Assembly (NCBI RefSeq): GCF_016097555.1
Contig: NC_054711.1
Location: 31,592,053 to 31,656,052, forward strand
DNA: 64,000 nt
Reading direction: 5' to 3'
Source of the DNA: Gigantopelta aegis
Taxonomy: Eukaryota > Mollusca > Gastropoda > Neomphalida > Peltospiridae
Shown here: piece by piece, positions 51-60,954 of the stretch
Layout of the letters: every line of letters begins with the position of its first letter
Position numbering within the stretch: position 1 is the first letter of the stretch
Made by a program: the position numbers and the translations under genes
Notes under the pieces: generated by a model
Told to the model about the DNA's origin: nothing
Databases searched by the model: none
The model's input: only the letters and a program-made list of their open reading frames with translations

Positions 51-231
51 CTGGTGTTCTGTGTGACAGCGAGGAGGCCATACACCTGGCTAAGGAGGCG
101 CACGAGGCGGAGAATGTCGACTTCAAAGGAGTTTACACGCACGAGGGCCATTCTTATTTTATTAAAGGGGTGCAGGAGCAGATGCAGTTTGGTCATGAAA
201 TAGTTGACAAACTGCTTACTCTAGCCAGCCG
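51..231 (+). CDS. PLP enzyme exon with [10 protein letters not shown]
   Basis: Preceded by a good acceptor (tttaatttcag, AG at 49-50) and followed by gtaagt at 232. It starts with two bases of a split codon and ends with two (CG), which join A of the next exon to give Arg. The translation begins [20 protein letters not shown] and ends KLLTLASR. Its last 14 bases are copied in the 100-bp array that follows. Confidence 0.88.
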
Positions 232-2420: not shown

Positions 2421-2455
<35 letters not shown>

Positions 2456-6663: not shown

Positions 6664-6719
<56 letters not shown>

Positions 6720-6918: not shown

Positions 6919-6969
<51 letters not shown>

Positions 6970-19320: not shown

Positions 19321-19324
19321 AATA

Positions 19325-25961: not shown

Positions 25962-26067
25962 TCACCAGAGTTTTACGAAGGACATCCGACTGAATCCGGG
26001 ATCTTTGCGAGCCTCCCAGTATTGCTTTGTGAAGTCGTACACTTCCTTGTCATTCGTCATCGTCTTT
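25962..26067 (-). CDS. OSBPL3/6/7: ORP terminal exon, residues 518-552 and stop
   Basis: Acceptor tatttctccag. Reads [20 protein letters not shown] and [17 protein letters not shown] at 25962-25964. The length and the W.. YWE.RKD.GF..LW ending match ORP3-group C-termini. Confidence 0.93.
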
Positions 26068-40200: not shown

Positions 40201-42925
40201 TCACACGACACTCCATCATGAAGGTCTTGAGAGGGTGAGACGGAAGCCACATTATATACCTCGGATGATGTACATCGCTGTCCGTTTCGGACCCGGTGAA
40301 GACCCGTTACATGTACGGTACTTATACTGTACTTTTCCTGAAGTCGTCAGTTTTGTCCTGTGGGCCCTGTTACACATCCGTTATTCATCAGTTCCCATGC
40401 ATTCCTTATCAGGTAATCGTCCGCTGAACATGCTGTACACCTCCAGTTCATCTGATGCATGTCAGGTAGTAGTCCGGCCGTGAGTCACGTCCACCGGACA
40501 TCAACGAATGCGAACTGACAAGTACAGGACGAGGAACACACAACAACCTTGCCTGACATGGAACGCATTCGCCGAACGACAAACGGACAGGAAACGCATG
40601 TGAACGGAGAAGAACGGATTGAAAATTTTGCTCTCCGTCGGACGTCCGTTAACGCTATCCGGCACGGTGTGACAGTAGCTTAAGTAAAATGGGAAAACAG
40701 AAATAAATATTTTCTCAAAAGTTTAAAAGTTAAACACAAAATAAAAATCACAAAATGAAAAAACTAAAATAAATATTTGCTTAAAAGTCAAAAAGTTAAA
40801 CACTAAGTAAACATCTCAAAATGGGAAAACTGAAATAAATATTTGCTTACACGTCAAAAACTGAAAATCCTAAAATGGGAAAATAGAAATAAAATTAGCT
40901 TAAAAGTCAAAAAGTTAAAATCCCCAAATGGGGTAAAGTTAAACACTTAAATGCTTTCATTATAATTATAAATCAATGTGCTCTAGTGGCGTCGTTGAAT
41001 GGATCCACCGAGGTGGTTTGATCCTGCAACACAAGCACCTCAGGCGAGCACTCTACCGACTGAGCTAAATCCTTCCCCTTATAAAAAAAGGTACAGGTGA
41101 GGAAAAATAGCAAAATATTATTTAAGCATTTCTTTTTTCATAGCCAATGGTCACACGGGTGTGTTCAGCTCAAAGAGATATATATATATGAGGACTGGAA
41201 TTTTGAACATGTAATTATGAAAAGAGTTGTCTTCAGGCAATTAATATACATGTACATGTATAGCCAAACTATTCATTCATCATGAAAGATAACAAACGGA
41301 CAGCATTTAATTGAAAAACACTTTCCTTTTTCACTTATTATATATATTGTTTAGTCATGTTGACATCATTCTCAACAACCAAGTGTCCCACATATGCTCA
41401 GTGGCGTAGCGGGGGCGGGGCACAAAATTCTGGATTGGTGGAAGGGACTCGGGGAGTGCTAACGGTCCACTGGTTAGGGGGGCGCAATACTTGCCTTGCC
41501 CCGGGCGCTGGCAACCCATGCTACGCCAATGCATATGCTACATGTACAATTGAAATTCCATATGATGTCATTTTAAACATTGTTTGCTACATGAATGAGG
41601 TCATGCCTCATCGGTGCTCTTTTTCACAGACCTGGTCACATATTATTATGAGAAGTCGTTTCATTATTATGGGCTATGTGCGACCGCGATAAGTAGAATG
41701 TGTTGTGTATTTACCATTCTCTCATAAGGATCACGAGGACACTGTATTTACCATTCTCTCGTAAGGATCACGAGGACCTGTGTGTGACCACGATAAGTAG
41801 AATGTGCTGTGTATTTACCATTCTCTCGTAAGGATCACGAGGACCTGTGTGTGACAGCGATAAGTAGAATATGCTGTGTATTTACCATTCTCTCGTAAGG
41901 ATCACGAGGACCTGTGTGTGACCACGCGTATTTACCATAAGTAGAATATAAGTCTGTGTATTTACCATTCTCTCGTAAGGATCACGAGGACCTGTGTGTG
42001 ACCACAGCGATAATTCTCTCGTAGAATATGCTGTGTATTTACCATTCTCTCGTAAGGATCACGAGGACCTGTGTGTGACCACGATAAGTAGAATGTGTTG
42101 TGTATTTACCATTCTCTCGTAAGGATCATTAGGACCTGTGTGTGACCACGATAAGTAGAATGTGTTGTGTATTTACCATTCTCTCGTAAGGATCACGAGG
42201 ACCTGTGTGTGACAGCGATAAGTAGAATGTGTTGTGTATTTACCATTCTCTCGTAAGGATCACGAGGACCTGTGTGTGACCACGATAAGTCGAATGTGTT
42301 ATGTATTTACCATTCTCTCGTAAGGATCACGAGGACGTGGACCTGTGTTGTGACCGCGATACCTGTGTGTGACCGTGATAAGTAGAATGTGTTGTGTATT
42401 TACCATTCTCTCGTAAGGATCACAAGGACCTGTGTGTGACCGCGATAAGTAGAATGTGTTGTGTATTTACCATTCTCTCGTAAGGATCACGAGAACCTGT
42501 GTGTGACTGTGTTAAGTAGAATGTGTTGTGTATTTACCATTCTCTCGTAAGGATCACAAGAACCTGTGTGTGACTGTGTTAAGTAGAATGTGTTGTGTAT
42601 TTACCATTCTCTCGTAAGGATCATCAAACTCCACAGCCTTGTCCAGCAATTCACTGTATTCAAGCTCCTCACAGAGTCTCTGTGAAAACAGAATACAATG
42701 AGAAAATATAACTGGATCACTAGCAGTAAAGTTATTTAGTGACTTAGAGAGATTCAGACAGAGAGAGACGGAGACAGAAACAGAGGAGACAGAGGAGAGA
42801 CGGAGAGAAAGACATATATAGACAGATACAGAGTGAGAAATAGAGACAGACGCATAGAGACAGTAAGGGAGGAGGGAAAGGGAGGGAGAGGGAGGGAAAG
42901 GGAGGGAGGGAGAGGGAGAAAAGGT

Positions 42926-42993: not shown

Positions 42994-45900
42994 CAAAAAG
43001 AGGGGGAGGGACAAAAAGAGGGGGAGGAACAAAGGGAGGGAGGGAGAGAGGGGGAGGGACAGAGAGAGGGAGGTAGGGAAGAAAAGAAAGAAAGAAAGAA
43101 AGAAAGAAAAAAATGAAAGGAAAGAAAGAAAAAGGAAGGGAAAGAGAGAGGGAGAAAGGCAGGGAGGGGGAGACAGACAAAGGAAGGGATGAAGATATGG
43201 AAAAAGAGAAAGAGAGAGGAGGGAGGGAGAGACGGGGTTGACAGACAGACACAATGAAGAACTTTTAACAAGTTTTATAACAACAATATTTTTTATTTCT
43301 GAATTTGCCCCAAACCCCAGACCGTGTACCAACTGACCTGTAGGGTGCAGAGCGGTTCGTTGAGCGTGACAGGCATGGAGATCTTGGTGAGGTCCTTGCC
43401 GATGTTCTTGTACAACAGATTCCACAGACTGATGTCGCCCGTGTCGGGCCGCGGAGCCGGCAGCTTGGAGCGGCGTCCGGTCGGGTACACCGACGAAAAC
43501 TCACCCACGGAAGCTGCGCACACAAAATAAAATATGTGCAAAGAAAATTATATTTAAAAAAAATAATCGTTTCTGGGACGAGGTTTTGTCTGACATGAGT
43601 CTGAATCAACGAAGTCCCAGAAATATTTTATAGTGCCATTAATCATGTAATTTTAGTACCTACCGGCCTCGGTGGCGTCGTGGTTAGGCCATCAGTCTAC
43701 AGGCTGGTAGGTACTGGGTTCGGATTCCAGTCGAGGCATGGGATTTTTAATCCAGATACCGACTCCAAACCCTGAGTGAGTGCTCAGCAAGGCTCAATGG
43801 GTAGGTGTAAACCACTTGCACCGACCAGTGATCCATAACTGGTTCAACAAAAGCCATGGTTTGTGCTATCCTGCCTGTGGGAAGCGAAATAAAAGATCCC
43901 TTGCTGCCTGTCGTAAAAGAGTAGCCTATGTGGCGACAGCGGGTTTCCTCTAAAAAACAGTCTCAGAATGACCATATGTTTGACGTCCAATAGCCGATGA
44001 TAAGATTTTTTTTTTTTAAATGTGCTCTAGTGGCGTCATTAAATAAAACAAACTTTACTTTTTTTAGTACCTGGTACAGTTATTATATAAATTGCACTGC
44101 ATTTTATTTATGTACCGTAACCTTGCTCATTCTCTGAGCTGATATATAACAAGTATTATTTGAGATAAACAAAAGCTAGGTAACAACAACGGTCTACCAG
44201 CCAGACAACAAGATCATTTAACCAATGTTTGTTTGTTTTGTTTAACGACACCACTAGAGCCCATTGCTTTTATCAATCATCAGCTATTGGATGTCAAACA
44301 TATGATCATTTTGACAGTCAGTGAGAGGAAACCTGCTACATTTTTCCATTAGTAGCAAGGGATCTTTTAGATGCACCATCCCAGAGACAGGATTAATTAA
44401 CCAATGAAAAGGGTGCTTTTCTGTCATGATACAGTGTGCCTTGTAGAAATAAGATGAAACTAAAGTTCTATAAAAGACCTAACAGCTTACCACATGTTAC
44501 ACTAACAGCATCAGTTTCGGTCTCAAAATCGTCAGACACATCACTGGAAGCCTCATCGGAATGCTATAACACAAACACAAAATTAAAATAACACATATTA
44601 CACACACACAGAGATAGACAGACACACAGACAGACAGACACAAACACAAACACACACACACAAACACAAACACACACACACAAACACACACAGAGAGAGA
44701 GACAGACAGACAGAGAGACAGACAGACAAAGATAGAGATACATGTAGAGACAGAGACAGACAGAGAGACAGACAGACAGACAGAGACAGACAGACAGAGA
44801 CAGATACACAGAGATAGACACAGATACAGACATACAAAGACACTGACAGAGAACAGACAATAAGACAAAGAAAGAAAAAACAACAGAGAAACAAACAAAA
44901 CAAATAAAAAAGTAAATGCAGATTTATTGGTGAACAGACACAAGTTATATATACCTCTGAGGAAGATTCACTGATATTCTCAAAAATCTCTTCAGCATCG
45001 TAATATTCAGACAAAGAGAAACTGTCTATAGACAGAGATTGTCCCAGCTTCGACTGCTCCACCTACAAAACACAAGTCACAGACAATATTGAAACAAACA
45101 TTCTGAAAGTACCATTCCTAAACTCAGTGACAATGAAGCTGGATGTGTCTTTGTGCTCTGTCAACTTAACCCCCCCCCCCCCCCTGGGGGGACTGATTAC
45201 AAGTTATGTAATGCTGTTAAAACTACTGAGTCGCATACACCAGGTCATGGACAACCCTGACTTTGGTGTACGGAGACTTGGTACAACCTAAGAAGAGGAC
45301 TCGGAAGAGGAACCCTGCACCCGGGACGGCACGGGGAAGGGGCCAAAACTGGTGGCTCAACAGCCAGCAGTAGTCCCTTCCACCTTACCCCCACGACCCC
45401 CCTCAGTTTTTCCTGACGGCTCCCAAACCCAAACTGCAGTATAAGCACCTCATCAGGATGGAAGGAAAAAAGGAAATGTTTTATTTAACGACGTACTCAA
45501 CACATTTTATTTTCAGTTATATGGCGTCAGACATATGATTAAGGACCACACAGATATTGAGAGAGGAAACCCGCTGTCGCCACTTCATAGGCTATTCTTT
45601 TCAATTAGCAACAAGGGATCTTTTATATGCACCATCCCACACGCAGGATAGTTCATACCACAGCCTTTGTTACACCAGTTGTGGAGCACTGGCTGGAACG
45701 AGAAATAGCCCAATGGATCCACCAATGTGGATCGATCCCAGACTGACCGCACATCAAGCGAACGCTTTACCACGGGGCTACTTCCCACACCCCTCATCAG
45801 GACGGACACCAGAGGAGACAGACTTTACACCAAAAGCCAACTGCTCACCTTCCAAATACTACCTAGTGGCGAGGGCGAGTACTCACTCCATCCCACCACC

Positions 45901-48900: not shown

Positions 48901-51900
48901 AATTATTTCGCCAATTAAAAACAAAATTTGTCAACTGTTTCCAAAACTCAGACTTGACGAATTTGGCAAGTGCATCAATGTGTTCTAGAGGTGCCATTAA
49001 ACAAAATAAACTTTTCATTTTTATTAGTCACGTAACAGCTTGCAGTCCAGCAGGTATGTGACAAAACTGTGCCTTTGATGATACAAGCCTGCAACTTAGC
49101 ATGGTGCCAGGGCATACCCTAGAGACGGACCTACCTTAGGAGACAATATCGGTGACGTGGGTGGAAGTTGCAAGTCAGAAATATTCGATTCAGTGTGGAT
49201 CCGAGAAAGTCGGCTCTTTAATGCTGTGTTTTGTCGTTGTGCCTACATACAGAAAACAGAAATCCAGTTTTCAGTGCAACAAGATAAACATACGTGACAA
49301 GAAATTATGCAGAATTAAATATCTTGTTATCATAAACTCAATTGGTTTTACTCATAATACTACAATTATAGAATGATGTTCAGTTTAATGCATATCAGGG
49401 CTTTGGAGCTCACTAATTTGGACAAAAAATTTTTTTTTATTGTTCCGAGTATAGCGAGATCTTTAAGGAGCACATCAATGTAATTAATTGATGGTGTTGG
49501 TGTTCTGTGTCAGAGTGTACACGTACCTCAAATAGCGACTGTTTGAGAGACGTGATGGTGTTGGTGTTCTGTGTCAGAGTGTACACGTACCTTAAATAGC
49601 GACTGTTTGAGAGACGCGATGGTGTCGGTGTTCTGTGTCAGAGTGTACACTATCTCAAATAGCGACTGTTTACGAGACGCGATGGTGTCGGTGTCCTGTG
49701 TCAGAGTGTACACGTACCTCAAATAGCGACTGTTTGAGAGACGCGATGGTGATGGTGTTCTGTGTCAGAGTGTACACGTACCTCAAATAGCGACTGTTTG
49801 AGAGACGCGATGGTGATGGTGTTCTGTGTCAGAGTGTACACGTACCTCAAATAGCGACTGTTTGAGAGACGCGATGGTGTTGGTGTTCTGTGTCAGAGTG
49901 TACACTATCTCAAATAGCGACTGTTTGAGAGACGCGATGGTGTTGGTGTTCTGTGTCAGAGTGTACACGTACCTCAAATAGCGACTGTTTGAGAGACGCG
50001 ATGGTGTTGGTGTTCTGTGTCAGAGTGTACACGTACCTCAAATAGCGACTGTCTGAGAGACGCGATGGTGTTGGTGTTCTGTGTCAGAGTGTACACATAC
50101 CTCAAATAGCGACTGTCTGAGAGACACGATGGTGTTGGTGTTCTGTGTCAGAGTGTACACGTACCTCAAATAGCGACTGTCTGAGAGACACGATGGTGTT
50201 GGTGTTCTGTGTCAGAGTGTACACGTACCTCAAATAGCGACTGTCTGAGAGACACGATGGTGTTGGTGTTCTGTGTCAGAGTGTACACGTACCTCAAATA
50301 GCGACTGTTTGAGAGACGTGATGGTGATGGTGTTCTGTGTCAGAGTGTACACGTACCTCAAATAGCGACTGTTTGAGAGACACGATGGTGTTGGTGTTCT
50401 GTGTCAGAGTGTACACGTACCTCAAATAGCGACTGTGTGAGAGACGCGATGGTGTTGGTGTTCTGTGTCAGAGTGTACACGTACCTCAAATAGCGACTGT
50501 CTGAGAGACGTGATGGTGTTGGTGTTCTGTGTCAGAGTGTACACTATCTCAAATAGTGACTGTCTGAGAGACGCGATGGTGTTGGTGTTCTGTGTCAGAG
50601 TGTACACGTACCTCAAATAGCGACTGTTTGAGAGACACGATGGTGTTGGTGTTCTGTGTCAGAGTGTACACGTACCTCAAATAGCGACTGTTTGAGAGAC
50701 GCGATGGTGTTGGTGTTCTGTGTCAGAGTGTACACGTACCTCAAATAGCGACTGTTTGAGAGACGCGATGGTGTTGGTGTTCTGTGTCAGAGTGTACACG
50801 TACCTCAAATAGCGACTGTTTGAGAGACGCGATGGTGTTGGTGTTCTGTGTCAGAGTGTACACGTACCTCAAATAGCGACTGTTTGAGAGACGTGATGGT
50901 GTTGGTGTTCTGTGTCAGAGTGTACACGTACCTCAAATAGCGACTGTTTGAGAGATGTGATGGTGATGGTGTTCTGTGTCAGAGTGTACACGTACCTCAA
51001 ATAGCGACTGTTTGAGAGATGCGATGGTGTTGGTGTTCTGTGTCAGAGTGTACACGTACCTCAAATAGCGACTGTGTGAGAGACGTGATGGTGTTGGTGT
51101 TCTGTGTCAGAGTGTACACTATCTCAAATAGCGACTGTTTGAGAGACGCGATGGTGTTGGTGTTCTGTGTCAGAGTGTACACTATCTCAAATAGCGACTG
51201 TCTGAGAGACGCGATGGTGTTGGTGTTCTGTGTCAGAGTGTACACTATCTCAAATAGCGACTGTTTGAGAGACGTGATGGTGTTGGTGTTCTGTGTCAGA
51301 GTGTACACTATCTCAAATAGCGACTGTTTGAGAGACGTGATGGTGTTGGTGTTCTGTGTCAGAGTGTACACGTACCTCAAATAGCGACTGTTTGAGAGAC
51401 GCGATGGTGTTCTGTGTCAGAGTGTACACGTACCTCAAATAGCGACTGTTTGAGAGACGCGATGGTGTTGGTGTTCTGTGTTAGAGTGTACACGTACCTC
51501 AAATAGCGACTGAGAGACGTGATGGTGTTGGTGTTCTGTGTCAGAGTGTACACGTACCTCAAATAGCGACTGTTTGAGAGACGCGATGGTGTTGGTGTTC
51601 TGTGTCAGAGTGTACACTATCTCAAATAGCGACTGTCTGAGAGACGCGATGGTGATGGTGTTCTGTGTCAGAGTGTACACGTACCTCAAATAGCGACTGT
51701 TTGAGAGACACGATGGTGTTGGTGTTCTGTGTCAGAGTGTACACTATCTCAAATAGTGACTGTCTGAGAGACGCGATGGTGTTGGTGTTCTGTGTCAGAG
51801 TGTACACGTACCTCAAATAGTGACTGTTTGAGAGACGCGATGGTGTTCTGTGTCAGAGTGTACACGTACCTCAAATAGCGACTGTTTGAGAGACGCGATG

Positions 51901-54900
51901 GTGTTGGTGTTCTGTGTCAGAGTGTACACGTACCTCAAATAGCGACTGTTTGAGAGACGTGATGGTGTTGGTGTTCTGTGTCAGAGTGTACACGTACCTC
52001 AAATAGCGACTGTTTGAGAGACGCGATGGTGTTGGTGTTCTGTGTCAGAGTGTACACGTACCTCAAATAGCGACTGTCTGAGAGACGCTATGGTGTTGGT
52101 GTTCTGTGTCAGAGTGTACACGTACCTCAAATAGCGACTGTTTGAGAGACGTGATGGTGTTGGTGTTCTGTGTCAGAGTGTACACGTACCTCAAATAGCG
52201 ACTGTTTGAGAGACGTGATGGTGTTGGTGTTCTGTGTCAGAGTGTACACGTACCTCAAATAGCGACTGTTTGAGAGACACGATGGTGTTGGTGTTCTGTG
52301 TCAGAGTGTACACGTACCTCAAATAGCGACTGTTTGAGAGACGTGATGGTGTTGGTGTTCTGTGTCAGAGTGTACACGTACCTCAAATAGCGACTGTTTG
52401 AGAGACACGATGGTGTTGGTGTTCTGTGTCAGAGTGTACACGTACCTCAAATAGCGACTGTCTGAGCGACGTGATGGTGTTCTGTGTCAGAGTGTACACG
52501 TACCTCAAATAGCGACTGTTTGAGAGACGTGATGGTGTTGGTGTTCTGTGTCAGAGTGCTCGATTCGCTCTCAATCGTCTGCTTCAGCCGCTCTCGCTCA
52601 GTGTTCATCATGTGTAATAAACTCTTCAGCTGGTTGTGCACTGCAACAACAGAAAAGAAACCCAATAAGCTTGTTAACACTTAAAGGCTAACTTAATAAT
52701 AATAAAATTGTTAAGTTACATACAGTTTAAATCTCTTTTTAATACTATAAACTTTGTATTTCTAATAATGAGTAAAAACTGTTATTTCTAATTTTTATAC
52801 TCATGCCAAAGAGCAATTTTATTTCCAAATTTTCAATGAAATGGCCTTTATTGGAAATAGCCAATCTTGTGATTGGTGATAAATGTATGTGTGTTGGTTG
52901 TAAAAACAAATTAGTTTCATCTGGGCAAAAAATGTCTGCAATTTTATTTCACCTAGTACCACCGTGTCAAGTAGCCTTGTGCTTAAAATATGTATGGGGT
53001 ATCTGCAAAAGAAAAGTATTCAAATTTTGTTCGGAACTAGGGTAGTCATAGACGCTACCTGTTATCTCTGAAATGAGCAGCTTGACACTGAATTTTTTGT
53101 GATTCACTTTAAGGGTGAGGGGTGGTAGTGTTTATATCCATGTTGTTTATGTCAAATGATACGCTGCAGGAAGTAAGGAAATGTTTTATTTAACGATGCA
53201 CTCAACACATTTTATTTACAGGTATATGGCATCAGACATATGGTTAAGGACCACACAGATATTGAGAGAGGAAACCCACTTCATGGGGTACTCTTTTCGA
53301 TTAGCAGCAAGGGATCTTTTATATGCACCATCCCACAGACAGGATAGTACATACAACCCCCTTTGTTACACCAGTTGTGGAGCACTGGCTGGAACAAGAA
53401 ATAGCCCAATGGGTCCACCGACGGGGATTGATCCTAGACCGATCGCACATCAAGACAACGCTTTACCACTGGGCTACGTAATGGTTATGGAGACGAATCT
53501 AGTCTATTTTAAGGATATATTTCCCCCATTTCAACGTCACACACTCTTGTTTCATTCTACTGTAACTTCATTCACATGTGTTACAGGTTTGTAGATTAAC
53601 AAAACTAAATGTTCATTTTCATGGGTTAAAACTAAATGTTTATTTTCATGGGTTAAAACTAAATGTTTATTTTCATGGGTTAAAACTAAATGTTCATTTT
53701 CATGGGTTAAAACTATAGTCTGTCCCATCCTCCAACAAAAATGTATTTTGTAAATAATTTCAGTTTGGTCTGATGTAAGAAGAAAAGTAAAAGTGTTTTG
53801 GAAATAACAAAAAAAACCCACTATTTTTGTGTGTAATTTGGAAAACAATCGGCTCAGAAATAAATAACTTAGTAAATTACATAGTACAGTAAAACCTGTC
53901 TAAACCAGATCATGTCAGGGACCTAATATTTATCCGGTTTGGAGAGGATCCGGTATTTAGAGGGTCACGTTTTAGAATATAGAGTTATTTCCCTTGACAT
54001 CGAATTCATAACTGCGAACGAACTTGTCCGAGAATCGCCGAATGAATGTGACTGTCGAAGCGACGACTCATACTAATGTCGCTATCTTCCAATTTTGTTA
54101 TGTATCTTTCTTATTTATTAATTGACATTAAAATATAAATAAAAACAACAGATTTCAATTTAATTTAGTTTTTACCACAATTAACATTGCAAAATGACAG
54201 TCTTTGTAATCATCAATTGCGTTGTTAGCTATACCGGCACTTTCACCGCTGATCTTGAAATGTCGAACAGAAAAGTATGACTTCCAGCTTTCTAACCATC
54301 CATTAGAAGCCTTAAAATCCTGAATCAGCAGATCAGATGAAACTTTAAAAGCTTTTTCCTGAATGATCGGTCCAGATATGAGAATATTCTTTGCTCGTGC
54401 ATGTTGGAACCATTTCCATGTCAGTTCATACAGTTCGTCATATTTGCAGCCTGTACTGAATCTCGTTTTGTTGGCGCTAGAGTTATTGTCATATTCTTGC
54501 AGATAAGCTGTCTTTTTCATTAATATGTCTGACACAGTGGAAATGCCAATGTCATACTTTCCTGCCAAATCCGTTTGAGTTAATTTTGGTACAGACTGCG
54601 AATCATTAGGCCTAATCAAATGAAATTTTACTTTCAACGATAATTCCACACTTGGGTGTGCAGCAGAATCTAAAGGATCAATGCAAGTGTCCAGTTTTTG
54701 TCTGATATCATCTCGGTCTTTCTTGTCTTCAGCGATCCTGGCTTTTGCCTCTTCCTTGTGTGCTGTTACCACCTTGTTTTGAGTGTCCTCCTCTATCATA
54801 TCATCGAGATCGGATTCCAATCGGCTGCATGTATGCAGACTAAGTGCCCATACCTTCAGGGTCTCTGGCTTAATCGTAATACCAATTATCCCACCTGGAG

Positions 54901-57900
54901 CATGACCATACCGCATGAAGGTCGTCTCAATCATCATATCGCTCCAAATGCCATTCCACAATCCAGCAGAATGGTGCAGGACATGCTCACCCTTGAGGAA
55001 GTGTGACAATACCTCTTCTGGTAGCCGCTCCATCTCCCGCTGGTAGCACAACCCATACCTAGCATAGTTCACATGTCCCGCAGCAAAGAAGTATGGTAGC
55101 ATTTGCTTGTAGGTAGCCAGATGAAGTGGCCAGTCACCTTCCCGTTCAGCTCGTATGAACATCATGATGAGCCGGACAGGCTTTATCAAGACGTCAACCC
55201 AGAGTTTGACAGTTTGGCTCCTGTTGGTTTCTGTTTCAAGAATATGCATAAGGTCATCACTGCGCTATAGTGGTTTGTCCTGAACAATTCCACAAAGTGC
55301 CTCTTCAGCTACCATTCTTATTGCTCGAACGTTCTGGGGAAACGTTTTTCCAGTGAGCATTTTTGGCACACCGCCAAACACAGAAGACATTATATCTGAC
55401 AGACCGGTATCAGCCATCAATGTTCCAATCTCTATATATAAAGTGTGGTGATCGAGACATGTTCGTTTGTTGTTGTTTTAGCAACATTCAGCGTGCATGT
55501 TTTTTGTATCTATCACAGAAAAAAAACTAAAATTCTGTTTGTATGTAGTGTATACAAATTAAGTCACGTGTGCATATTTTAATTCTAAATTAAGTTGTTT
55601 CTAATATTTTACTCTGTGTGTCAGTATTCCACTATCAAAGTGCACTGATTAAAAATAAAAGGTGAAAAACCTAATGTGTGAGTATCTGAGAATTGTCTGA
55701 AGCTGTAAAGAATTTGCTCAGCTGTGCACTGCACAAGACAGGACAATTGAAAACAATCAAGCCTTAATTCCTCTGCCGTCTGCTAAGCTGGGCTGAGATC
55801 ACGGAAATCAGTGATCAGTGACGTAACTCTGGATGCTGGACAGCAGAAATTTCGGTCTGCATTGTTTTCTGGAAATTGTGTTTTCGTTCAGGTTACTCTT
55901 CATTCGTTTATACTACGCCGGTTTGTTCAGGTTAATTAATAAAGGATTTTACATTTCTGAACCAAAAATCAATCCGGTTTCCGAAATGTACTGGTTCCGG
56001 TTTTATCAGGTTTTTAATACATGGTTTAAGTAAGAGAATATTCGGGACCATGAAATTTGGCCATTTTTGACAGTATTTCGGTAACTTCAGGGTCCGGTTT
56101 AGACAGGTTTCACATACTGTATTAAAAAAGGTGTTCCCTGTGGGAAGTCCAATAAATGTTAATTTTCATGGGTCGAATCTATAGTCTGTCCCATCCTATA
56201 AAAATGTTTGGAGTGCAATTTAATAAATAAATAATTTGTAGTAAATTCCATGGTATGAAAAAAGGCATTCCTTGTGGGAAGGACAATAAGGTTCCATTTG
56301 CACGGGTTGATATGGTACACCTTGTTCGCCCTTGGTGATGAAAGTTAAACTATAAGTTGGTATGTCATACCTTGTTCGCCCTTGGTGATGAAAGTTAAAC
56401 TGTAAGTTGGTATGTCATACCTTGTTCACCCTTGGTGATGAAAGTTAAACTGTAAGTTGGTATGTCATACCTTGTTCGCCCTTGGTGATGAAAGTTAAAC
56501 TATAAGTTGGTATGTCATACCTTGTTCACCCTTGGTGATGAAAGTTAAACTGTAAGTTGATATGGTACACCTTGTTCGCCCTTGGTGATGAAAGTTAAAC
56601 TGTAAGTTGGTATGTCAGACCTTGTTCACCCTTGGTGATGAAAGTTAAACTATAAGTTGGTATGTCATACCTTGTTCACCCTTGGTGATGAAAGTTAAAC
56701 TGTAAGTTGATATGGTACACCTTGTTCGCCCTTGGTGATGAAAGTTAAACTGTAAGTTGGTATGTCAGACCTTGTTCACCCTTGGTGATGAAAGTTAAAC
56801 TATAAGTTGGTATGTCATACCTTGTTCACCCTTGGTGATGAAAGTTAAACTGTAAGTTGGTATGTCATACCTTGTTCGCCCTTGGTGATGAAAGTTAAAC
56901 TATAAGTTGGTATGTCATACCTTGTTCACCCTTGGTGATGAAAGTTAAACTGTAAGTTGGTATGTCATACCTTGTTCGCCCTTGGTGATGAAAGTTAAAC
57001 TATAAGTTGGTATGTCATACCTTGTTCACCCTTGGTGATGAAAGTTAAACTGTAAGTTGGTATGTCATACCTTGTTCACCCTTGGTGATGAAAGTTAAAC
57101 TATAAGTTGGTATGTCATACCTTGTTCACCCTTGGTGATGAAAGTTAAACTATAAGTTGGTATGTCATACCTTGTTCACCCTTGGTGATGAAAGTTAAAC
57201 TATAAGTTGGTATGTCATACCTTGTTCGCCCTTGGTGATGAAAGTTAAACTGTAAGTTGGTATGTCATACCTTGTTCACCCTTGGTGATGAAAGTTAAAC
57301 TATAAGTTGGTATGTCATACCTTGTTCGCCCTTGGTGATGAAAGTTAAACTGTAAGTTGGTATGTCATACCTTGTTCACCCTTGGTGATGAAAGTTAAAC
57401 TGTAAGTTGGTATGTCATACCTTGTTCGCCCTTGGTGATGAAAGTTAAACTATAAGTTGGTATGTCATACCTTGTTCACCCTTGGTGATGAAAGTTAAAC
57501 TGTAAGTTGGTATGTCATACCTTGTTCACCCTTGGTGATGAAAGTTAAACTATAAGTTGGTATGTCATACCTTGTTCACCCTTGGTGATGAAAGTTAAAC
57601 TGTAAGTTGATATGGTACACCTTGTTCGCCCTTGGTGATGAAAGTTAAACTGTAAGTTGGTATGTCAGACCTTGTTCACCCTTGGTGATGAAAGTTAAAC
57701 TATAAGTTGGTATGTCATACCTTGTTCACCCTTGGTGATGAAAGTTAAACTGTAAGTTGGTATGTCATACCTTGTTCGCCCTTGGTGATGAAAGTTAAAC
57801 TATAAGTTGGTATGTCATACCTTGTTCACCCTTGGTGATGAAAGTTAAACTGTAAGTTGGTATGTCATACCTTGTTCGCCCTTGGTGATGAAAGTTAAAC

Positions 57901-60900
57901 TATAAGTTGGTATGTCATACCTTGTTCACCCTTGGTGATGAAAGTTAAACTGTAAGTTGGTATGTCATACCTTGTTCTCCCTTGGTGATGAAAGTTAAAC
58001 TATAAGTTGGTATGTCATACCTTGTTCACCCTTGGTGATGAAAGTTAAACTATAAGTTGGTATGTCATACCTTGTTCACCCTTGGTGATGAAAGTTAAAC
58101 TATAAGTTGGTATGTCATACCTTGTTCGCCCTTGGTGATGAAAGTTAAACTGTAAGTTGGTATGTCATACCTTGTTCACCCTTGGTGATGAAAGTTAAAC
58201 TATAAGTTGGTATGTCATACCTTGTTCGCCCTTGGTGATGAAAGTTAAACTGTAAGTTGGTATGTCATACCTTGTTCACCCTTGGTGATGAAAGTTAAAC
58301 TGTAAGTTGGTATGTCATACCTTGTTCGCCCTTGGTGATGAAAGTTAAACTATAAGTTGGTATGTCATACCTTGTTCACCCTTGGTGATGAAAGTTAAAC
58401 TGTAAGTTGGTATGTCATACCTTGTTCACCCTTGGTGATGAAAGTTAAACTATAAGTTGGTATGTCATACCTTGTTCACCCTTGGTGATGAAAGTTAAAC
58501 TATAAGTTGGTATGTCATACCTTGTTCACCCTTGGTGATGAAAGTTAAACTATAAGTTGGTATGTCATACCTTGTTCGCCCTTGGTGATGAAAGTTAAAC
58601 TGTAAGTTGGTATGTCATACCTTGTTCACCCTTGGTGATGAAAGTTAAACTATAAGTTGGTATGTCATACCTTGTTCACCCTTGGTGATGAAAGTTAAAC
58701 TGTAAGTTGGTATGTCATACCTTGTTCACCCTTGGTGATGAAAGTTAAACTGTAAGTTGGTATGTCACACCTTGTTCACCCTTGGTGATGAAAGTTAAAC
58801 TGTAAGTTGGTATGTCACACCTTGTTCACCCTTGGTGATGAAAGTTAAACTGTAAGTTGGTATGTCACACCTTGTTCACCCTTGGTGATGAAAGTTAAAC
58901 TGTAAGTTGGTATGTCACACCTTGTTCGCCCTTGGTGATGAAAGTTAAACTGTAAGTTGGTATGTCACACCTTGTTCACCCTTGGTGATGAAAGTTAAAC
59001 TGTAAGTTGGTATGTCACACCTTGTTCGCCCTTGGTGATGAAAGTTAAACTGTAAGTTGGTATGTCACACCTTGTTCACCCTTGGTGATGAAAGTTAAAC
59101 TATAAGTTGGTATGTCACACCTTGTTCACCCTTGGTGATGAAAGTTAAACTGTAAGTTGGTATGTCACACCTTGTTCACCCTTGGTGATGAAAGTTAAAC
59201 TGTAAGTTGGTATGTCACACCTTGTTCGCCCTTGGTGATGAAAGTTAAACTGTAAGTTGGTATGTCATACCTTGTTCACCCTTGGTGATGAAAGTTAAAC
59301 TATAAGTTGGTATGTCATACCTTGTTCACCCTTGGTGATGAAAGTTAAACTGTAAGTTGGTATGTCATACCTTGTTCACCCTTGGTGATGAAAGTTAAAC
59401 TGTAAGTTGGTATGTCACACCTTGTTCACCCTTGGTGATGAAAGTTAAACTGTAAGTTGGTATGTCACACCTTGTTCACCCTTGGTGATGAAAGTTAAAC
59501 TGTAAGTTGGTATGTCACACCTTGTTCACCCTTGGTGATGAAAGTTAAACTGTAAGTTGGTATGTCACACCTTGTTCACCCTTGGTGATGAAAGTTAAAC
59601 TGTAAGTTGGTATGTCACACCTTGTTCACCCTTGGTGATGAAAGTTAAACTGTAAGTTGGTATGTCACACCTTGTTCACCCTTGGTGATGAAAGTTAAAC
59701 TGTAAGTTGGTATGTCAGACCTTGTTCGCCCTTGGTGATGAAAGTTAAACTATAAGTTGGTATGTCATACCTTGTTCGCCCTTGGTGATGAAAGTTAAAC
59801 TGTAAGTTGGTATGTCATACCTTGTTCATCCTTGGTGATGAAAGTTAAACTGTAAGTTGATATGGTACACCTTGTTCGCCCTTGGTGATGAAAGTTAAAC
59901 TGTAAGTTGGTATGTCATACCTTGTTCGCCCTTGGTGATGAAAGTTAAACTGTAAGTTGGTATGTCATACCTTGTTCACCCTTGGTGATGAAAGTTAAAC
60001 TGTAAGTTGGTATGTCATACCTTGTTCGCCCTTGGTGATGAAAGTTAAACTGTAAGTTGGTATGTCAGACCTTGTTCACCCTTGGTGATGAAAGTTAAGC
60101 TATAAGCTGGTATGTCATACCTTGTTCACCCTTGGTGATGAAAGTTAAACTATAAGCTGGTATGTCATACCTTGTTCACCCTTGGTGATGAAAGTTAAGC
60201 TATAAGCTGGTATGTCATACCTTGTTCACCCTTGGTGATGAAAGTTAAACTATAAGTTGGTATGTCATACCTTGTTCGCCCTTGGTGATGAAAGTTAAAC
60301 TTTAAGTTGGTATGTCATACCTTGTTCACCCTTGGTGATGAAAGTTAAACTTTAAGTTGGTATGTCATACCTTGTTCACCCTAGGTGATGAAAGTTAAAC
60401 TATAAGTTGGTATGTCATACCTTGTTCACCCTTGGTGATGAAGGTTAAACTATAAGTTGGTATGTCATACCTTGTTCACCCTTGGTGATGAAGGTTAAAC
60501 TATAAGCTGGTATGTCATACCTTGTTCACCCTTGGTGATGAAGGTTAAGCTATAAGCTGGTATGTCATACCTTGTTCACCCTTGGTGATGAAAGTTAAGC
60601 TATAAGTTGGTATGTCATACCTTGTTCACCCTTGGTGATGAAAGTTAAACTATAAGTTGGTATGTCATACCTTGTTCACCCTTGGTGATGAAAGTTAAGC
60701 TATAAGCTGGTATGTCATACCTTGTTCACCCTAGGTGATGAAAGTTAAACTATAAGCTGGTATGTCATACCTTGTTCACCCTTGGTGATGAACGTCTCCC
60801 TCAGTTTGATCTCCTGGATACGTTGTTCGTGCGACTGACTCAGCGGCATGTCTGAGAGACTCATCGGCCGTGACGATGTTGTGTGGTTCAACAGGTTCGG

Positions 60901-60954
60901 GTTCGACGCGCTTGAGTGCATCCGCTCAGGAACCACCAACGATCCAGAGCCAGC
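25962..60954 (-). CDS. OSBPL3/6/7: Oxysterol-binding-protein-related protein, ORP3/6/7 group, last 14 exons
   Basis: Fourteen exons (60954-60771, 52640-52504, 45062-44955, 44563-44491, 43513-43338, 42679-42605, 39071-38934, 38302-38239, 36991-36913, 36242-36107, 34024-33880, 32419-32293, 29319-29209, 26067-25962) join in phase to 1659 nt: 552 residues and a stop. Local residues: 62-107 coiled coil; 126-132 EYYDAEE, an FFAT motif for VAP binding at the ER; 133-166 acidic Ser-rich; about 175-540 the ORD lipid-transfer domain with [45 protein letters not shown] (fingerprint, His at 300-301), [28 protein letters not shown] and the KxxxExxxR (495/499/503) expected to bind PI4P. The end [14 protein letters not shown] resembles vertebrate ORP3. 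The PH domain must lie upstream of the window. Expected role: sterol/phosphoinositide exchange at ER-plasma membrane contacts. Five of its introns, at six donors counted with the split array, carry donor-seeded minisatellites. Confidence 0.95.
26126..26198. repeat. Short inverted repeat with GACGTCA
   Basis: 'aatgatgtcattttgggaag' faces 'cttctcaaaatgacgtcatt' across about 26 bases. Confidence 0.75.
26264..26288 (+). repeat. Poly(G) tract followed by C-rich DNA
   Basis: About 25 G, then several C runs to 26410. Possible G-quadruplex or hairpin; length uncertain in assembly. Confidence 0.9.
26471..26622. repeat. Fold-back element, about 60-nt arms, 20-nt loop
   Basis: Left arm includes 'gaatcgtactgatttgacaa' and 'gtcaggatttatgtatt'. 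The right arm carries their complements ('aatacaaaaatcctgac', 'aaatcagtacgac'). Lies in the last ORP intron. Confidence 0.85.
26860..29230 (-). repeat. 129-bp minisatellite containing ORP exon end and 5' splice site, about 18 copies
   Basis: Each unit contains the complement of GAGCCACGCTGGTTTTAGTA, i.e. the end of exon 29319-29209 and its gtaagatcattagag donor. Two unit types differ by 'gaggacgctagctc' or 'gagtaactttacttc'. A few units are shortened (around 28094-28172). The last unit at 29209 is the real exon. Confidence 0.95.
29209..29319 (-). CDS. OSBPL3/6/7: ORP exon with KxxxExxxR, residues 481-517
   Basis: Acceptor gtgttgcag, donor gtaaga. Reads [30 protein letters not shown] and TEPRWFK. 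K495, E499 and R503 fit the PI4P-binding triad of yeast Osh4. Its last bases seed the 129-bp array. Confidence 0.94.
   Translation of the reverse strand, partial: VTGGRSYNRSRGRETASGIQSTRAAEERRGNGATLV
29395..29715 (-). repeat. Full-length SINE, reverse
   Basis: Tail 'ttaacaacaccactagagca', body, and head complement 'accattgggctatgtcccga'. Confidence 0.85.
29775..30085 (+). repeat. Dispersed repeat shared with 52805-53115
   Basis: Both contain 'gtgattggt.ataaatgt', 'gtgtcaagtagccttgtgct' and 'ctagggtagtcatagacgct' in the same order. Unknown family, about 300 bp. Confidence 0.75.
30248..30350. mobile_element. Short MITE, inverted ends GGGCCCTTTT
   Basis: Starts 'gggcccttttccacgaaacg' and ends 'tttttgaacagggcc'. 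The inner repeat 'atcttagtgctaagatcacc' has its inverted partner 'ggtgatcccagcactaagat'. Confidence 0.78.
30538..31190. repeat. 51-bp minisatellite, about 13 copies
   Basis: Unit 'tttctataaatagacacgac', 'cattacactgtaaataaacc', 'tgatcattaaca'. Two and a half more copies lie at 33635-33752. Confidence 0.95.
31674..32082 (-). repeat. SINE-B copy, reverse, with target duplication
   Basis: Flanked by 'ggttatggagtaaa' on both sides (31660 and 32084). Inserted in an older repeat related to 53487-53620. Confidence 0.87.
32293..32419 (-). CDS. OSBPL3/6/7: ORP exon with [13 protein letters not shown], residues 439-480
   Basis: Acceptor gttacag directly after a (CATT)n run, donor gtgaga. Reads [29 protein letters not shown] and [13 protein letters not shown]. 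Confidence 0.95.
32430..32487 (+). repeat. (AATG)n microsatellite at a 3' splice site
   Basis: On the gene strand it reads (CATT)n and ends six bases before the AG of exon 32419-32293. Confidence 0.95.
32862..33625 (+). repeat. 38-bp minisatellite grown from a SINE tail, about 19 copies
   Basis: Starts 'aagtttgttttatttaacga', the reverse tail of the SINEs here. Then the unit 'cgacgccactagacacctat', 'tggaactgttctatttaa' repeats. Confidence 0.92.
33791..33885 (-). repeat. 26-bp minisatellite with ORP donor, 3 copies plus the real site
   Basis: Unit 'cagcacattaccttgtctat', 'aaacac'. On the - strand each copy carries ACAAG|gtaatgtgctg, the end of exon 34024-33880 and its donor. Confidence 0.9.
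33880..34024 (-). CDS. OSBPL3/6/7: ORP exon with [11 protein letters not shown], residues 391-438
   Basis: Acceptor ttgttag, donor gtaatg. Reads [37 protein letters not shown] and [18 protein letters not shown] is a conserved ORD block. Confidence 0.94.
34192..34292 (+). repeat. (GA)n microsatellite
   Basis: Simple GA repeat; SLSLSL frames are artefacts. Confidence 0.96.
34385..34560 (-). repeat. Diverged SINE fragment, reverse
   Basis: 'gagcttctatatgcacctt' and 'ggcactggttgggatggga'. Confidence 0.55.
34565..36130 (-). repeat. Donor-seeded minisatellite of ORP exon 36242-36107, two subfamilies
   Basis: 34565-35640: about 18 units of 61-62 bp. 35640-36107: about 6 units of 78 bp. Each repeats the end of the exon (gene strand ...CATAGTCT..CAAGCT then TTTACAAAG or TTTATAAAG) and GT donor. 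The distal 61-bp units are closer to the real exon than the adjacent 78-bp units. Confidence 0.95.
36107..36242 (-). CDS. OSBPL3/6/7: ORP exon with [16 protein letters not shown], residues 345-390
   Basis: Acceptor tgttgcag, donor gtaaaa. Reads [34 protein letters not shown] and [11 protein letters not shown]. Phase 0 out. About 39 bases of its end are in the array that follows. Confidence 0.94.
36435..36520 (-). repeat. SINE fragment, reverse
   Basis: 'gagccttttatatgcacttt' and 'ggacagtgcataccatggca'. Confidence 0.6.
36680..36895 (-). repeat. 62-bp tandem repeat, 3 copies, just inside an ORP intron
   Basis: Unit 'caaaaccccatcagacataa', 'acgtactacaacatcgatgt', 'aatcatttgtgaaacggcga', 'ta'. 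Ends about 15 bp from the donor at 36911 but does not contain it. Confidence 0.93.
36913..36991 (-). CDS. OSBPL3/6/7: ORP exon with FWGKSMEI, residues 319-344
   Basis: Acceptor tttttccag, donor gtaagt. Reads [20 protein letters not shown] then VNVCLPK across the join. Confidence 0.95.
37064..37412 (+). repeat. (AATG)n microsatellite
   Basis: About 350 bp with GGAAT and AAATG variants; no coding value. Confidence 0.96.
37678..37786. repeat. Fold-back element with 27-nt arms
   Basis: 'gtgtccgtttgataccattt' then 'atcttac' faces its exact complement 'gtaagataaatggtatcaaa', 'cggacac', across about 55 bases. Confidence 0.85.
38239..38302 (-). CDS. OSBPL3/6/7: ORP exon with VSHHPPISA, residues 298-318
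   Basis: Acceptor gttttag. Reads [20 protein letters not shown] then Q. The only donor that joins in phase to the next exon is gcaagt right after CAAG: a GC-AG intron. Both PI4P-contacting His are present. Confidence 0.95.
38412..38770 (-). repeat. Two adjacent SINE fragments, reverse
   Basis: SINE-B-type tail and body at 38412-38625 ('catcagacatatggttaagg', 'gggatcttttatatgcacca') and a main-family fragment at 38650-38770. Confidence 0.75.
38934..39071 (-). CDS. OSBPL3/6/7: ORP exon with [12 protein letters not shown], residues 252-297
   Basis: 46 codons, phase 0 at both ends, acceptor gttttcag, donor gtgggt. Reads [40 protein letters not shown] and LFVSEQ. Ends inside the EQVSHHPP fingerprint (EQ|VSHHPP). 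Confidence 0.97.
39319..40680 (+). mobile_element. PIF/Harbinger-type DNA transposon, non-autonomous, 1362 bp
   Basis: About 48-bp terminal inverted repeats start AGCTACTGTCACACC and end in the complement. Target duplication TAA on the right (40681-40683) and TGA (mutated) on the left. The intact minisatellite unit 'cactaagtaaaa' shows the empty site. 3-bp TWA duplications are the PIF/Harbinger rule. It codes for a MADF-like DNA-binding segment but no transposase. Confidence 0.85.
39705..40149 (+). pseudogene. MADF-domain protein remnant of the Harbinger-type element
   Basis: First frame from ATG 39705: [20 protein letters not shown], Lys/Ser-rich, ends TAG 39921-39923. A second frame shifted by two continues [20 protein letters not shown], then [20 protein letters not shown] and [19 protein letters not shown], ending TAG 40147-40149. 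W..EHP.LW...H.DYKNK......W is the MADF/Myb-like signature of Harbinger second proteins. The change of frame could be a frameshift or an intron. Confidence 0.7.
40965..41078 (-). repeat. SINE head remnant, reverse
   Basis: 'gtggtttgatcctgcaacac' and 'gactgagctaaatccttccc', the complement of the 'tttagctcagtcggtagag' head. Confidence 0.6.
41700..42626 (-). repeat. 67-bp minisatellite with ORP exon end and donor, about 13 copies
   Basis: Unit (+): 'tttaccattctctcgtaagg', 'atcacgaggacctgtgtgtg', 'accacgataagtagaatgtg', 'ttgtgta'. Gene strand carries TGATCCTTACGAGAGAATG|gtaaatac. The unit at 42605 is the real exon 42679-42605. Confidence 0.96.
42605..42679 (-). CDS. OSBPL3/6/7: ORP exon [19 protein letters not shown], residues 227-251
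   Basis: Exactly 25 codons, phase 0 at both ends, acceptor tttcacag, donor gtaaat. The (L)EYSELLD...DP.ERM pattern is conserved in all ORPs. Its last 19 bases and donor seed the 67-bp array. Confidence 0.95.
42745..43245 (+). repeat. (GA)n/(GGGA)n microsatellite
   Basis: About 500 bp purine-rich. The SLSLPP and RERERE frames on both strands, some over 200 codons, are not genes. Confidence 0.97.
43338..43513 (-). CDS. OSBPL3/6/7: ORP exon, start of the lipid-transfer domain, residues 168-226
   Basis: Acceptor gtgcgcag, donor gtcagt. Reads [40 protein letters not shown] and [11 protein letters not shown]. The IGKDL..I.MPV..NEP..LQ block is the classic ORD N-terminus with the lid region before it. 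Confidence 0.95.
43669..44060 (+). repeat. SINE-B, near full length
   Basis: Head 'cggcctcggtggcgtcgtgg', B-box-like 'gggttcggattcc', tail 'ctagtggcgtcattaaataa'. Confidence 0.9.
44228..44398 (-). repeat. SINE fragment, reverse
   Basis: 'tttaacgacaccactagagc' and 'agtagcaagggatcttttag'. Confidence 0.78.
44491..44563 (-). CDS. OSBPL3/6/7: ORP acidic Ser-rich exon, local residues 144-167
   Basis: Acceptor gttatag, donor gtaagc. Reads [20 protein letters not shown] then SVTC. Phase 0 in, phase 1 out. The acidic tract after FFAT is typical of the ORP3 group. Confidence 0.88.
44595..44880 (+). repeat. (CA)n/(GACA)n microsatellite
   Basis: Lies just upstream (gene strand) of the acceptor of exon 44563-44491. 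Confidence 0.95.
44955..45062 (-). CDS. OSBPL3/6/7: ORP exon with FFAT motif, local residues 108-143
   Basis: Acceptor tttgtag, donor gtatat. Reads [18 protein letters not shown] then EYYDAEE (44988-45008) and ends SESSSE. Vertebrate ORP3 has SLSEFFDAQE followed by an acidic serine stretch at the same place, so the call as the FFAT exon is firm. The two Phe are Tyr here. Confidence 0.92.
45470..45790 (-). repeat. SINE, reverse, with target duplication
   Basis: Flanked by 'cctcatcaggatgg' (45449) and 'cctcatcaggacgg' (45792), a 14-bp duplication typical of LINE-driven insertion. Confidence 0.85.
45868..45988 (+). repeat. 35-bp tandem repeat, 3 copies
   Basis: Unit 'gagtactcactccatccgac', 'caccaccagtgatgg'. 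Contains the inverted word 'ggagtgagtactcactcc'. Confidence 0.92.
46057..47398 (+). repeat. 79-bp minisatellite, about 17 copies, with higher-order structure
   Basis: Unit 'acaacgcagctctacataga', 'gtcatcaagactgtcatagg', 'ccaggactacccagccatca', 'cgagggcgttacctgctac'. A four-unit pattern of variants (acaatgcag, attggcc, actatca, catagtcatc) at 46297-46540 recurs at 46926-47170. On the - strand each unit has GTAGCAG|gtaacg, a donor-like site. Confidence 0.94.
47480..49485. other. Intron sequence without a recognised gene
   Basis: AT-rich. Contains a short dispersed piece with 'gacagagttatggcccctga' near 47880 and a decayed copy of part of ORP exon 45062-44955 at 48068-48160. Nothing else is supported. 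Confidence 0.6.
48068..48160 (-). pseudogene. Decayed partial duplicate of the 5' half of the ORP FFAT exon with its acceptor
   Basis: 'acaaagagaaactgtctata' then 'gacaga' and 'cgacta/gct.ccacctaca' match 45010-45080 in order, including the tgtag acceptor and flanking intron. The copied reading frame meets a TAG early (GGTGTAGTCG) and stops before the FFAT codons, so it is a dead exon copy 3 kb upstream in the same intron. Confidence 0.7.
49490..52557 (-). repeat. 63/64-bp minisatellite made mostly of ORP coiled-coil exon, about 48 copies
   Basis: Gene-strand unit: 55 bases of exon (CTCTGACACAGAACACCAAC ... GTCGCTATTTGAG) plus 9 bases of intron (gtacgtgta). Most units are 64 bp with a GAG|gtacgt donor. 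About nine units are 63 bp, have GAGATAGTG in place of the donor and stay in frame. A few are shorter (for example 51507, 51400, 52475). Confidence 0.96.
52504..52640 (-). CDS. OSBPL3/6/7: ORP coiled-coil exon, local residues 62-107
   Basis: Acceptor gttgttgcag, donor gtacgt. Reads [31 protein letters not shown] and [14 protein letters not shown]. Ends in phase 0. The last 55 bases are repeated about 48 times downstream, so the true donor is taken as the one nearest the unique exon part. A transcript could use another. Confidence 0.85.
52805..53115 (+). repeat. Dispersed repeat shared with 29775-30085
   Basis: Same ordered words: 'gtgattggtgataaatgtat', 'gtgtcaagtagccttgtgct', 'actagggtagtcatagacgc'. 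Confidence 0.75.
53170..53485 (-). repeat. SINE, reverse
   Basis: Tail 'tttatttaacgatgcactca', body 'tatgcaccatcccacagaca', head complement 'accactgggctacgta'. Confidence 0.85.
53600..53715 (+). repeat. 27-bp tandem repeat, 4 copies
   Basis: Unit 'aaaactaaatgttcattttc', 'atgggtt'. Confidence 0.9.
53887..56119 (-). mobile_element. pogo/Tigger-type DNA transposon, 2233 bp
   Basis: Ends CAGTAAAACCTGTCTAAACC and, inverted, GGTTTAGACAGGTTTCACAT then ACTG. TA at both outer ends (53885-53886, 56120-56121), the Tc1/mariner-pogo rule. It encodes the paired DNA-binding helices of Tigger/jerky transposases but no DDE catalytic domain is visible, so it should be non-autonomous. Confidence 0.88.
54155..55249 (-). 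CDS. Chimeric open frame in the Tigger-type element: unknown domain plus psq/CENP-B HTH
   Basis: 364 codons open. Residues about 1-205 hold an unrecognised domain ([69 protein letters not shown]) and a charged helix. Residues about 206-350 are a Tigger-like N-terminus: a psq-type HTH ([20 protein letters not shown]) then a CENP-B-type HTH ([20 protein letters not shown]). The join near [12 protein letters not shown] suggests capture of foreign coding DNA; similar sequence continues upstream of the frame to about 55440. Not an ORP exon. Expression unknown. Confidence 0.6.
   Translation of the reverse strand: MHILETETNRSQTVKLWVDVLIKPVRLIMMFIRAEREGDWPLHLATYKQMLPYFFAAGHVNYARYGLCYQREMERLPEEVLSHFLKGEHVLHHSAGLWNGIWSDMMIETTFMRYGHAPGGIIGITIKPETLKVWALSLHTCSRLESDLDDMIEEDTQNKVVTAHKEEAKARIAEDKKDRDDIRQKLDTCIDPLDSAAHPSVELSLKVKFHLIRPNDSQSVPKLTQTDLAGKYDIGISTVSDILMKKTAYLQEYDNNSSANKTRFSTGCKYDELYELTWKWFQHARAKNILISGPIIQEKAFKVSSDLLIQDFKASNGWLESWKSYFSVRHFKISGESAGIANNAIDDYKDCHFAMLIVVKTKLN
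56183..56292 (+). repeat. Partial copy of the 'AGTCCGTCCCA' MITE
   Basis: 'ctatagtctgtcccatccta' and 'aaaggcattccttgtgggaa', with the middle shortened. Confidence 0.65.
56311..60790 (-). repeat. 50-bp minisatellite with ORP exon end and donor, 89 copies plus the real site
   Basis: Word 'cttgttc' recurs exactly every 50 bp from 56321 to 60771 with no indel over 4450 bp. Gene-strand unit: TTTCATCACCAAGGGTGAAC, AAG|gtatgaca, taccaacttatagtttaac. Only point variants (gcc/acc, tataa/tgtaa, catac/cacac/cagac). The block 56711-57610 recurs as 57611-58510 in the same variant order, an 18-unit (900-bp) duplication. Confidence 0.98.
60771..60954 (-). CDS. OSBPL3/6/7: ORP exon (linker after PH domain), local residues 1-61
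   Basis: Acceptor ttttttag before 60954 and donor gtatga after 60771. Reads [20 protein letters not shown], then [20 protein letters not shown] and ends ETFITKGEQ. Serine-rich linker then helix. Phase 0 in, phase 1 out. Its last 22 bases and donor are the seed of the 50-bp array. Confidence 0.88.

Follow-up and report, generated by a model that had tools for sequence, protein, structure and literature searches.

Genes and exons in the window

The window, that is, the whole 64,000-nt stretch of Gigantopelta aegis DNA analysed here, belongs to an assembly of 1.149 Gb in 5,216 contigs, and holds a gene on the minus strand and an exon of another gene on the plus strand. The joined exon peptides of the minus-strand gene are matched by PF01237 (E 3.5e-107) and resemble no PDB chain more closely than 7dei (oxysterol-binding protein-related protein 3; E 2.6e-104). 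This peptide homology unites the exons in a single ORP3-like gene for an oxysterol-binding protein. Its two most upstream exons (60771..60954 and 52504..52640) gave no family match above the cut-off, and they are placed by their open frame and splice signals only. The plus-strand exon (51..231) has a weak Ala_racemase_N match (E 0.0099), which lies below the Pfam cut-off. A search of Rfam at the gathering threshold returned no match. Exon ends were assigned from homology and signal scores alone. The exons are listed below, a slash marking the boundary between exon and intron here and throughout.

51..231, plus strand: plus-gene exon, acceptor after 50 and donor after 231, weak alanine-racemase-like match (read directly)
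60771..60954, minus strand: ORP3-like gene, upstream exon ending GAACAAG/GTATGA (open frame, splice signals)
52504..52640, minus strand: minus-gene exon ending TTTGAG/GTACGT (open frame, splice signals)
49135..49242, minus strand: minus-gene exon, unrepeated donor (direct reading, local-repeat test)
44955..45062, minus strand: minus-gene exon, unrepeated donor (direct reading, local-repeat test)
43338..43513, minus strand: minus-gene exon, unrepeated donor (direct reading, local-repeat test)
42605..42679, minus strand: ORP3-like exon ending AGAATG/GTAAAT (direct reading, PDB-chain match)
38934..39071, minus strand: ORP3-like exon with peptide ending SEQ/, unrepeated donor (direct reading, local-repeat test)
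38239..38302, minus strand: ORP3-like exon with peptide starting VSHHPP, probable GC donor GGCAAG/GCAAGT (direct reading)
36107..36242, minus strand: ORP3-like exon ending ACAAAG/GTAAAA (direct reading)
33880..34024, minus strand: ORP3-like exon ending GACAAG/GTAATG (direct reading)
32293..32419, minus strand: ORP3-like exon, unrepeated donor (direct reading, local-repeat test)
29209..29319, minus strand: ORP3-like exon ending GGTTTAA/GTAAGA (direct reading)
25962..26067, minus strand: last coding exon of the ORP3-like gene (direct reading, PDB-chain match)

Twelve GT donors are supported in the window, 11 on the minus strand and one on the plus strand, together with one probable GC donor, after 38239, which was left out of the 12 that were counted. 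Most of the window donors are of the form AG/GT or NG/GT. An intron of the ORP3-like gene also contains, at 54155-55264, a 369-aa open frame that encodes the DNA-binding domain of a Tc5-type transposase (PF03221, E 4.1e-11). Transposon-like fragments are reminiscent of those of molluscs.

Seven arrays that begin inside exons

The tandem-repeat finder TRF returned 109 rows for the window. Seven of the window's arrays each begin 7–55 nt within an exon, and repeat the end of that exon, the GT donor and the start of the intron. In unit size and head-to-tail order they are minisatellites, with units of 26–130 bp in 3.9 to about 89 copies (TRF).

Array 1, 218..2416, plus strand: 22 copies of a 100-bp unit, 14 nt exonic, including CCG/GTAAGT (TRF)
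Array 2, 56319..60792, minus strand: about 89 copies of a 50-bp unit, 22 nt exonic (TRF)
Array 3, 49490..52558, minus strand: about 48 copies of a 64-bp unit, 55 nt exonic (TRF)
Array 4, 41706..42623, minus strand: 67-bp unit, 19 nt exonic (TRF)
Array 5, 34563..36146, minus strand: 78-bp units beside the exon, then 62-bp units, 40 nt exonic (TRF)
Array 6, 33785..33886, minus strand: 3.9 copies of a 26-bp unit, 7 nt exonic (TRF)
Array 7, 26888..29225, minus strand: 129–130-bp units in two blocks (26888-28107 and 28150-29225), 17 nt exonic (TRF)
Arrays off donors, in the minus-strand gene: 53601, 46059-47399, 45877, 40686, 39082, 36701, 32864-33753 and 30532-31320 (TRF)

A sequence-only reading of this stretch had described seven arrays made of exon end, donor and intron start. 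All seven were recovered by TRF and by direct reading, each with its GT donor and with coordinates within about 30 bases of those it gave, and the exonic overlaps listed above bear out the description of the repeated unit. Its count of seven among 17 donors has to be replaced by seven among the 12 supported GT donors. It had also stated that no array includes an acceptor-exon junction; in agreement with this, none of the 14 window acceptors is repeated within 300 nt. When the genome was searched at the DNA level with the first 350 bp of array 2, the sole array searched in this way and by a method that passes over very common words, all 19 matches fell inside array 2 itself.

The remaining arrays of the minus-strand gene in the TRF list overlap none of the assigned donors. 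The repeats at 30532-31190 and 33633-33753, about 2.4 kb apart in the same gene, have very similar 52-bp units, some of which may move or spread. The 79-bp array at 46059-47399 is intronic and carries a sense-oriented donor-like site (score 3.9); on reading the sequence, no exon was found upstream of it. A run of 30 G (2424-2453; TRF) lies a few bases past array 1.

Donors and acceptors outside the window

As the window was chosen for its donor arrays, only sequence outside it provides an independent test. The genome was searched with PF00063, PF01237 and PF00118 and the matching stretches were added to the window, giving a merged sample of 335,845 bp in 22 segments, with 271,845 bp (15 loci) outside the window. 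Exons were taken from family matches, tblastn between paralogues and splice-signal scores. The first set of 98 exons excluded array-internal matches, matches below 28 bits, low-signal junctions and a handful of named clusters, including the partial second copies of two exons on scaffold C5. Another 29 predicted exons (myosin, chaperonin and oxysterol-binding) were added by eye, some of them superseding earlier assignments, so that the junction assignments are partly a matter of judgement.

The sample contains 124 non-overlapping arrays with a period of at least 15, which add up to 55,242 bp. Between 50 and 500 nt downstream of the sampled donors, 17–23% of positions lie inside arrays; upstream of acceptors the coverage is 11–18%, dropping to 1% in the last 150 nt. 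Random intron points fall inside a local repeat in 15.0% of cases outside the window and in 18.8% overall. A plain comparison of coverage, in which donors (12 of 93) were no richer in repeats than the intron interior, was discarded as the wrong null, since copies upstream of a donor would be exonic, so that no unit but the first in an array can overlap it. In the local-repeat test, a 20-mer at each point was compared, with up to four mismatches, with the 300 nt on each side, and the point was scored when it was the 5'-most copy of the repeat (the 3'-most for acceptors). Intron points are the 5'-most copy in 2–3% of cases.

By this measure, seven of the 12 window donors score as 5'-most copies, against 0.35 expected. 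Outside the window the figure is 9 of 112, against 2.3 expected (P 6.5e-4), and for the whole sample, window included, it is 16 of 124, against 2.65 expected gene by gene. The donor P values, Poisson ones included, are optimistic because the cases cluster within genes: six loci supply all nine outside the window, a single myosin gene contributing three and a second myosin gene two, and the share of repeated donors is 6 of 11 for the ORP3-like gene and 3 of 13 for one myosin gene, against 0 of 12 and 0 of 9 for other genes. Four of the 107 usable acceptors outside the window (109 assigned) are the 3'-most copy, against 2.57 expected. Exon by exon, the ratio of observed to expected is thus 3.9 for donors and about 1.5–1.6 for acceptors. 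The assertion that chance placement of intronic repeats would not produce such overlaps is upheld as an excess over the 5'-most-copy null, although an array coverage of 17–23% downstream of donors calls for care.

TRF arrays gave a similar count for donors outside the window, 7 of 111 (one weak donor having been removed by hand), against a mean of 2.5 for random points in the same segments (P 0.013). These seven arrays are on five other scaffolds (C1, C4, C5, C8 and C9). An earlier, smaller set of donors outside the window gave 6 of 84 (P 0.010). For acceptors outside the window the TRF count is 3 of 109, and the contrast with donors has a Fisher P of 0.33; with the window included the counts become 14 of 123 and 3 of 123 (Fisher P 0.0099). 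The repeat-finder comparison put forward in the sequence-only reading, when carried out on the 335,845-bp sample, therefore places donors above random points but does not separate them from acceptors outside the window.

The extra copies within 300 nt lie downstream in all 16 repeated donors and upstream in all four repeated acceptors. This one-way polarity had been put forward as a possible sign of a process acting at exon-intron junctions; it is confirmed in every donor case, but coding constraint suffices to explain it, since copies on the exon side would alter the coding sequence and an intron-only direction is to be expected whatever the mechanism. In the best TRF rows, the three acceptor-spanning arrays have 2.2–2.4 copies and the 14 donor-spanning arrays 1.9–89.5, some of the latter being as short as the acceptor ones (2.0 copies on C5 and on C9). 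At G000:C5:3246119-3247026, partial second copies (76% and 87% identity) lie beside two adjacent myosin exons and are an exon-scale form of edge duplication.

Array borders and tandem motifs

Outside the window, the 5' edges of arrays pile up at donors. Against a mean of 0.33 per kb, there are 8 edges (1.79 per kb) at [-20,20) of donors, 4 (0.89 per kb) at [-60,-20) and 4 (0.91 per kb) at [20,60), the pile-up extending about 60 nt in each direction. The 3' edges accumulate at acceptors, with 6 edges (1.38 per kb; mean 0.33 per kb) at [-20,20), and 3'-most copies are elevated 20–150 nt upstream of acceptors, in a profile that is noisy farther away (6 at -800). As borders accumulate at acceptors too, the pile-up is an exon-edge effect rather than a donor-only one, and it is strongest at donors.

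The donor consensus MAGGTRAGT, taken three times at 29–59 bp spacing, gave 2,778 matches genome-wide, against 746 for the reversed motif. Two scrambled words and their reversals gave 971 and 887, and 848 and 680, so that the consensus is about 3.4-fold over-represented in tandem triples relative to the mean of the five control words (826). Single occurrences number 41,233 for the consensus and 44,954 for its reversal; normalised by these, the donor motif is 4.1-fold enriched over the reversed motif. The exact word CAGGTAAGT gave 493 against 216 tandem matches, one very long array being among the first 100 matches listed. For the acceptor-like motif TTTTNCAGR the triples number 1,932 against 1,131 (singles 169,802 and 156,940), an enrichment of about 1.6-fold after normalisation. 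The two enrichments, 4.1 and 1.6, are near the exon-by-exon ratios of 3.9 and 1.6; they are counts of matches instead of arrays, so that long arrays carry more weight, and they are made by motif alone, irrespective of real exons, with single occurrences counted for just one control word and a single acceptor pair. Of the donor-directed process that had been suggested, the excess over intron points and the enrichment of motif triples are retained, but not strict donor specificity, in view of the four repeated acceptors outside the window, the acceptor edges at 1.38 per kb and the Fisher P of 0.33 there.

The first donor, the later copies and the age of the introns

In 11 of the 14 cases, translation continued past the first donor runs into a stop inside the first unit; in the remaining three the stop is at +44, +81 and +95 nt. 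The frames were picked by script, several exons having more than one that is open. Since no such reading stays open beyond +95 nt, the first donor is probably the one in use.

Probe-found copies of array 1 carry the same donor in 22 of 22 instances, a count biased toward intact copies. An apparently perfect conservation of GT in the seven window arrays (212 of 212 probe-found copies) was dropped after an unbiased cyclic alignment. That alignment covers 12 of the 14 arrays; 13 changes fall in the GT columns, where 19.4 were expected (P 0.45), and 105 in the donor 9-mer, where 87.8 were expected. The GT columns thus vary about as often as other column pairs, as unselected copies do, and no sign of selection keeping or removing later copies was found in these 12 arrays.

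Matching introns were found in paralogues for three of the 14 array-bearing introns. The myosin intron behind the donor C8:71020337 (LIER/) is shared by two paralogues (LIEK/ and LLEK/), two paralogues also carry the HIFYQ intron of C4:109857507, in phase 1 (exon ends as assigned here), and the DPYERM/ intron of the window (exon 42605..42679) lies within one codon of the ERMQ/ intron in the paralogue on C7. In the NPIME pair, the assigned intron positions are one base apart. To judge from the matches between paralogues, those three introns predate their arrays, and the arrays therefore did not create them. The proposal that intron birth through AGGT duplication had run away here is accordingly not supported for these introns, which are the testable ones.

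Origin of the arrays

The most probable explanation, in our view, is that these are intron minisatellites in a minisatellite-rich genome, whose borders accumulate at exon edges, and that duplications straddling a donor have been tolerated and then expanded. A tandem duplication across a donor would leave the exon, the donor and the reading frame intact while the first donor is used. It would for that reason be kept, and could grow by slippage or unequal exchange, all the extra copies being intronic. Duplications across an acceptor also occur, those in the sample having stayed short, plausibly from constraint by the branch point, the pyrimidine tract and first-AG choice. Tolerance alone predicts no excess over the intron interior, so some further bias must be added: the roughly fourfold excess may come from more frequent duplication near exon edges or from longer survival there. 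Within this explanation, we infer the chemistry of duplication, the use of the first donor and the cause of the donor excess.

A tentative alternative is that active 5' splice sites, or transcribed exon edges, are hotspots of tandem duplication, in which case the arrays would be ladders of up to about 90 competing, near-identical donors, only the first giving the correct message. In its fuller form, with a process linked to transcription or splicing (R-loops, U1-bound nascent RNA, pausing) seeding repeats at 5' splice sites beyond any effect of selection, it seems to us possible but rather unlikely. It would account for an excess over intron points of about fourfold in the case of donors (9 found, 2.3 expected) and about 1.5-fold in that of acceptors (4 found, 2.6 expected), and for the parallel difference between the donor and acceptor-like motif triples. 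Among 102 arrays off known donors, moreover, units with a donor-like score above 5 are sense-oriented by 6 to 1 (at about four places), but the contrast is 1 to 1 above score 6 and the overall comparison of sense and antisense gives a Wilcoxon P of 0.17. Array borders accumulate at acceptors as well, and donors and acceptors do not differ significantly outside the window.

Pure survivorship, with duplications arising at a uniform rate and the donor-spanning ones merely among those that selection retains, would explain the intron-only direction and the few long acceptor-spanning arrays, and 15–19% of random intron points fall within local repeats in any case. Its prediction for repeated donors outside the window is 2.3, where nine were found, and it leaves no room for a surplus of donor-motif triples, where 2,778 were counted against 680–971. 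If the sample is representative, we consider it improbable. It is more doubtful still that selection favours the repeated donors, whether for splice-site redundancy or because arrays binding U1 would guard long introns against premature polyadenylation: intact donors in many copies, such as the 22 of 22 in array 1 (probe-biased), would suit this idea, but neither the GT columns (P 0.45; 12 arrays) nor the donor 9-mer shows significantly stronger conservation than the rest of the unit.

That the arrays are run-away products of intron birth through tandem duplication across AGGT is very unlikely; the AG/GT or NG/GT form of most window donors agrees with such a model, which is supported for other genes in the available text of PMC3443670 and PMC4974935, but it requires an acceptor derived from a copy, while window acceptors are repeated in 0 of 14 cases, and three array-bearing introns have a match in a paralogue. 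An assembly artefact, with repeats collapsed, expanded or misplaced at exon ends, is hardly credible: errors are likely in long arrays, but the window is without any N, the first copies run on unbroken from intact exons, and comparable structures are present on five further scaffolds, at seven donors in all.

Significance and comparison with known systems

The structure is real and is present in several genes of the genome. If the exon-edge bias is a mutation bias, transcription or splicing would be tied to the birth of tandem repeats; even if it is due to selection only, the arrays offer a natural test of how the spliceosome chooses among near-identical donors about 24–170 nt apart. When donors are duplicated in test systems, the intron-proximal copy is often favoured. 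A literature search by title and start of abstract, with subscription papers outside its scope, found no report of donor-anchored minisatellites, and none of the splice terms looked for is present in a tandem-repeat study in Daphnia (PMC3152781).

Several known systems share features with the arrays. In human segmental-duplication genes, tandem repeats overlap the exon-intron boundary and can alter splicing (PMC2812944), as the overlap seen here might; the human case concerns recent paralogues and alternative transcripts that retain the repeat, and neither a donor bias nor long donor arrays were found in the part of that paper available. Tandem duplication that copies a splice site has been described in intron gain (PMC4974935, available text). 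Here such copying is also seen, but the arrays are younger than their introns in the three cases tested, the window acceptors lie outside the arrays and the copies reach about 89. CeRep25B of C. elegans, according to the accessible part of PMC4039745, is likewise an intronic minisatellite linked to splicing, enriched in introns that flank alternative exons; it is one family at several places, whereas each of the seven window arrays is made from its own exon end. Introners (PMC9860276), finally, are repetitive sequences tied to introns, as the window arrays are, but they spread into many genes and make new introns, whereas the search with array 2, which passes over very common words, gave matches at no other locus.
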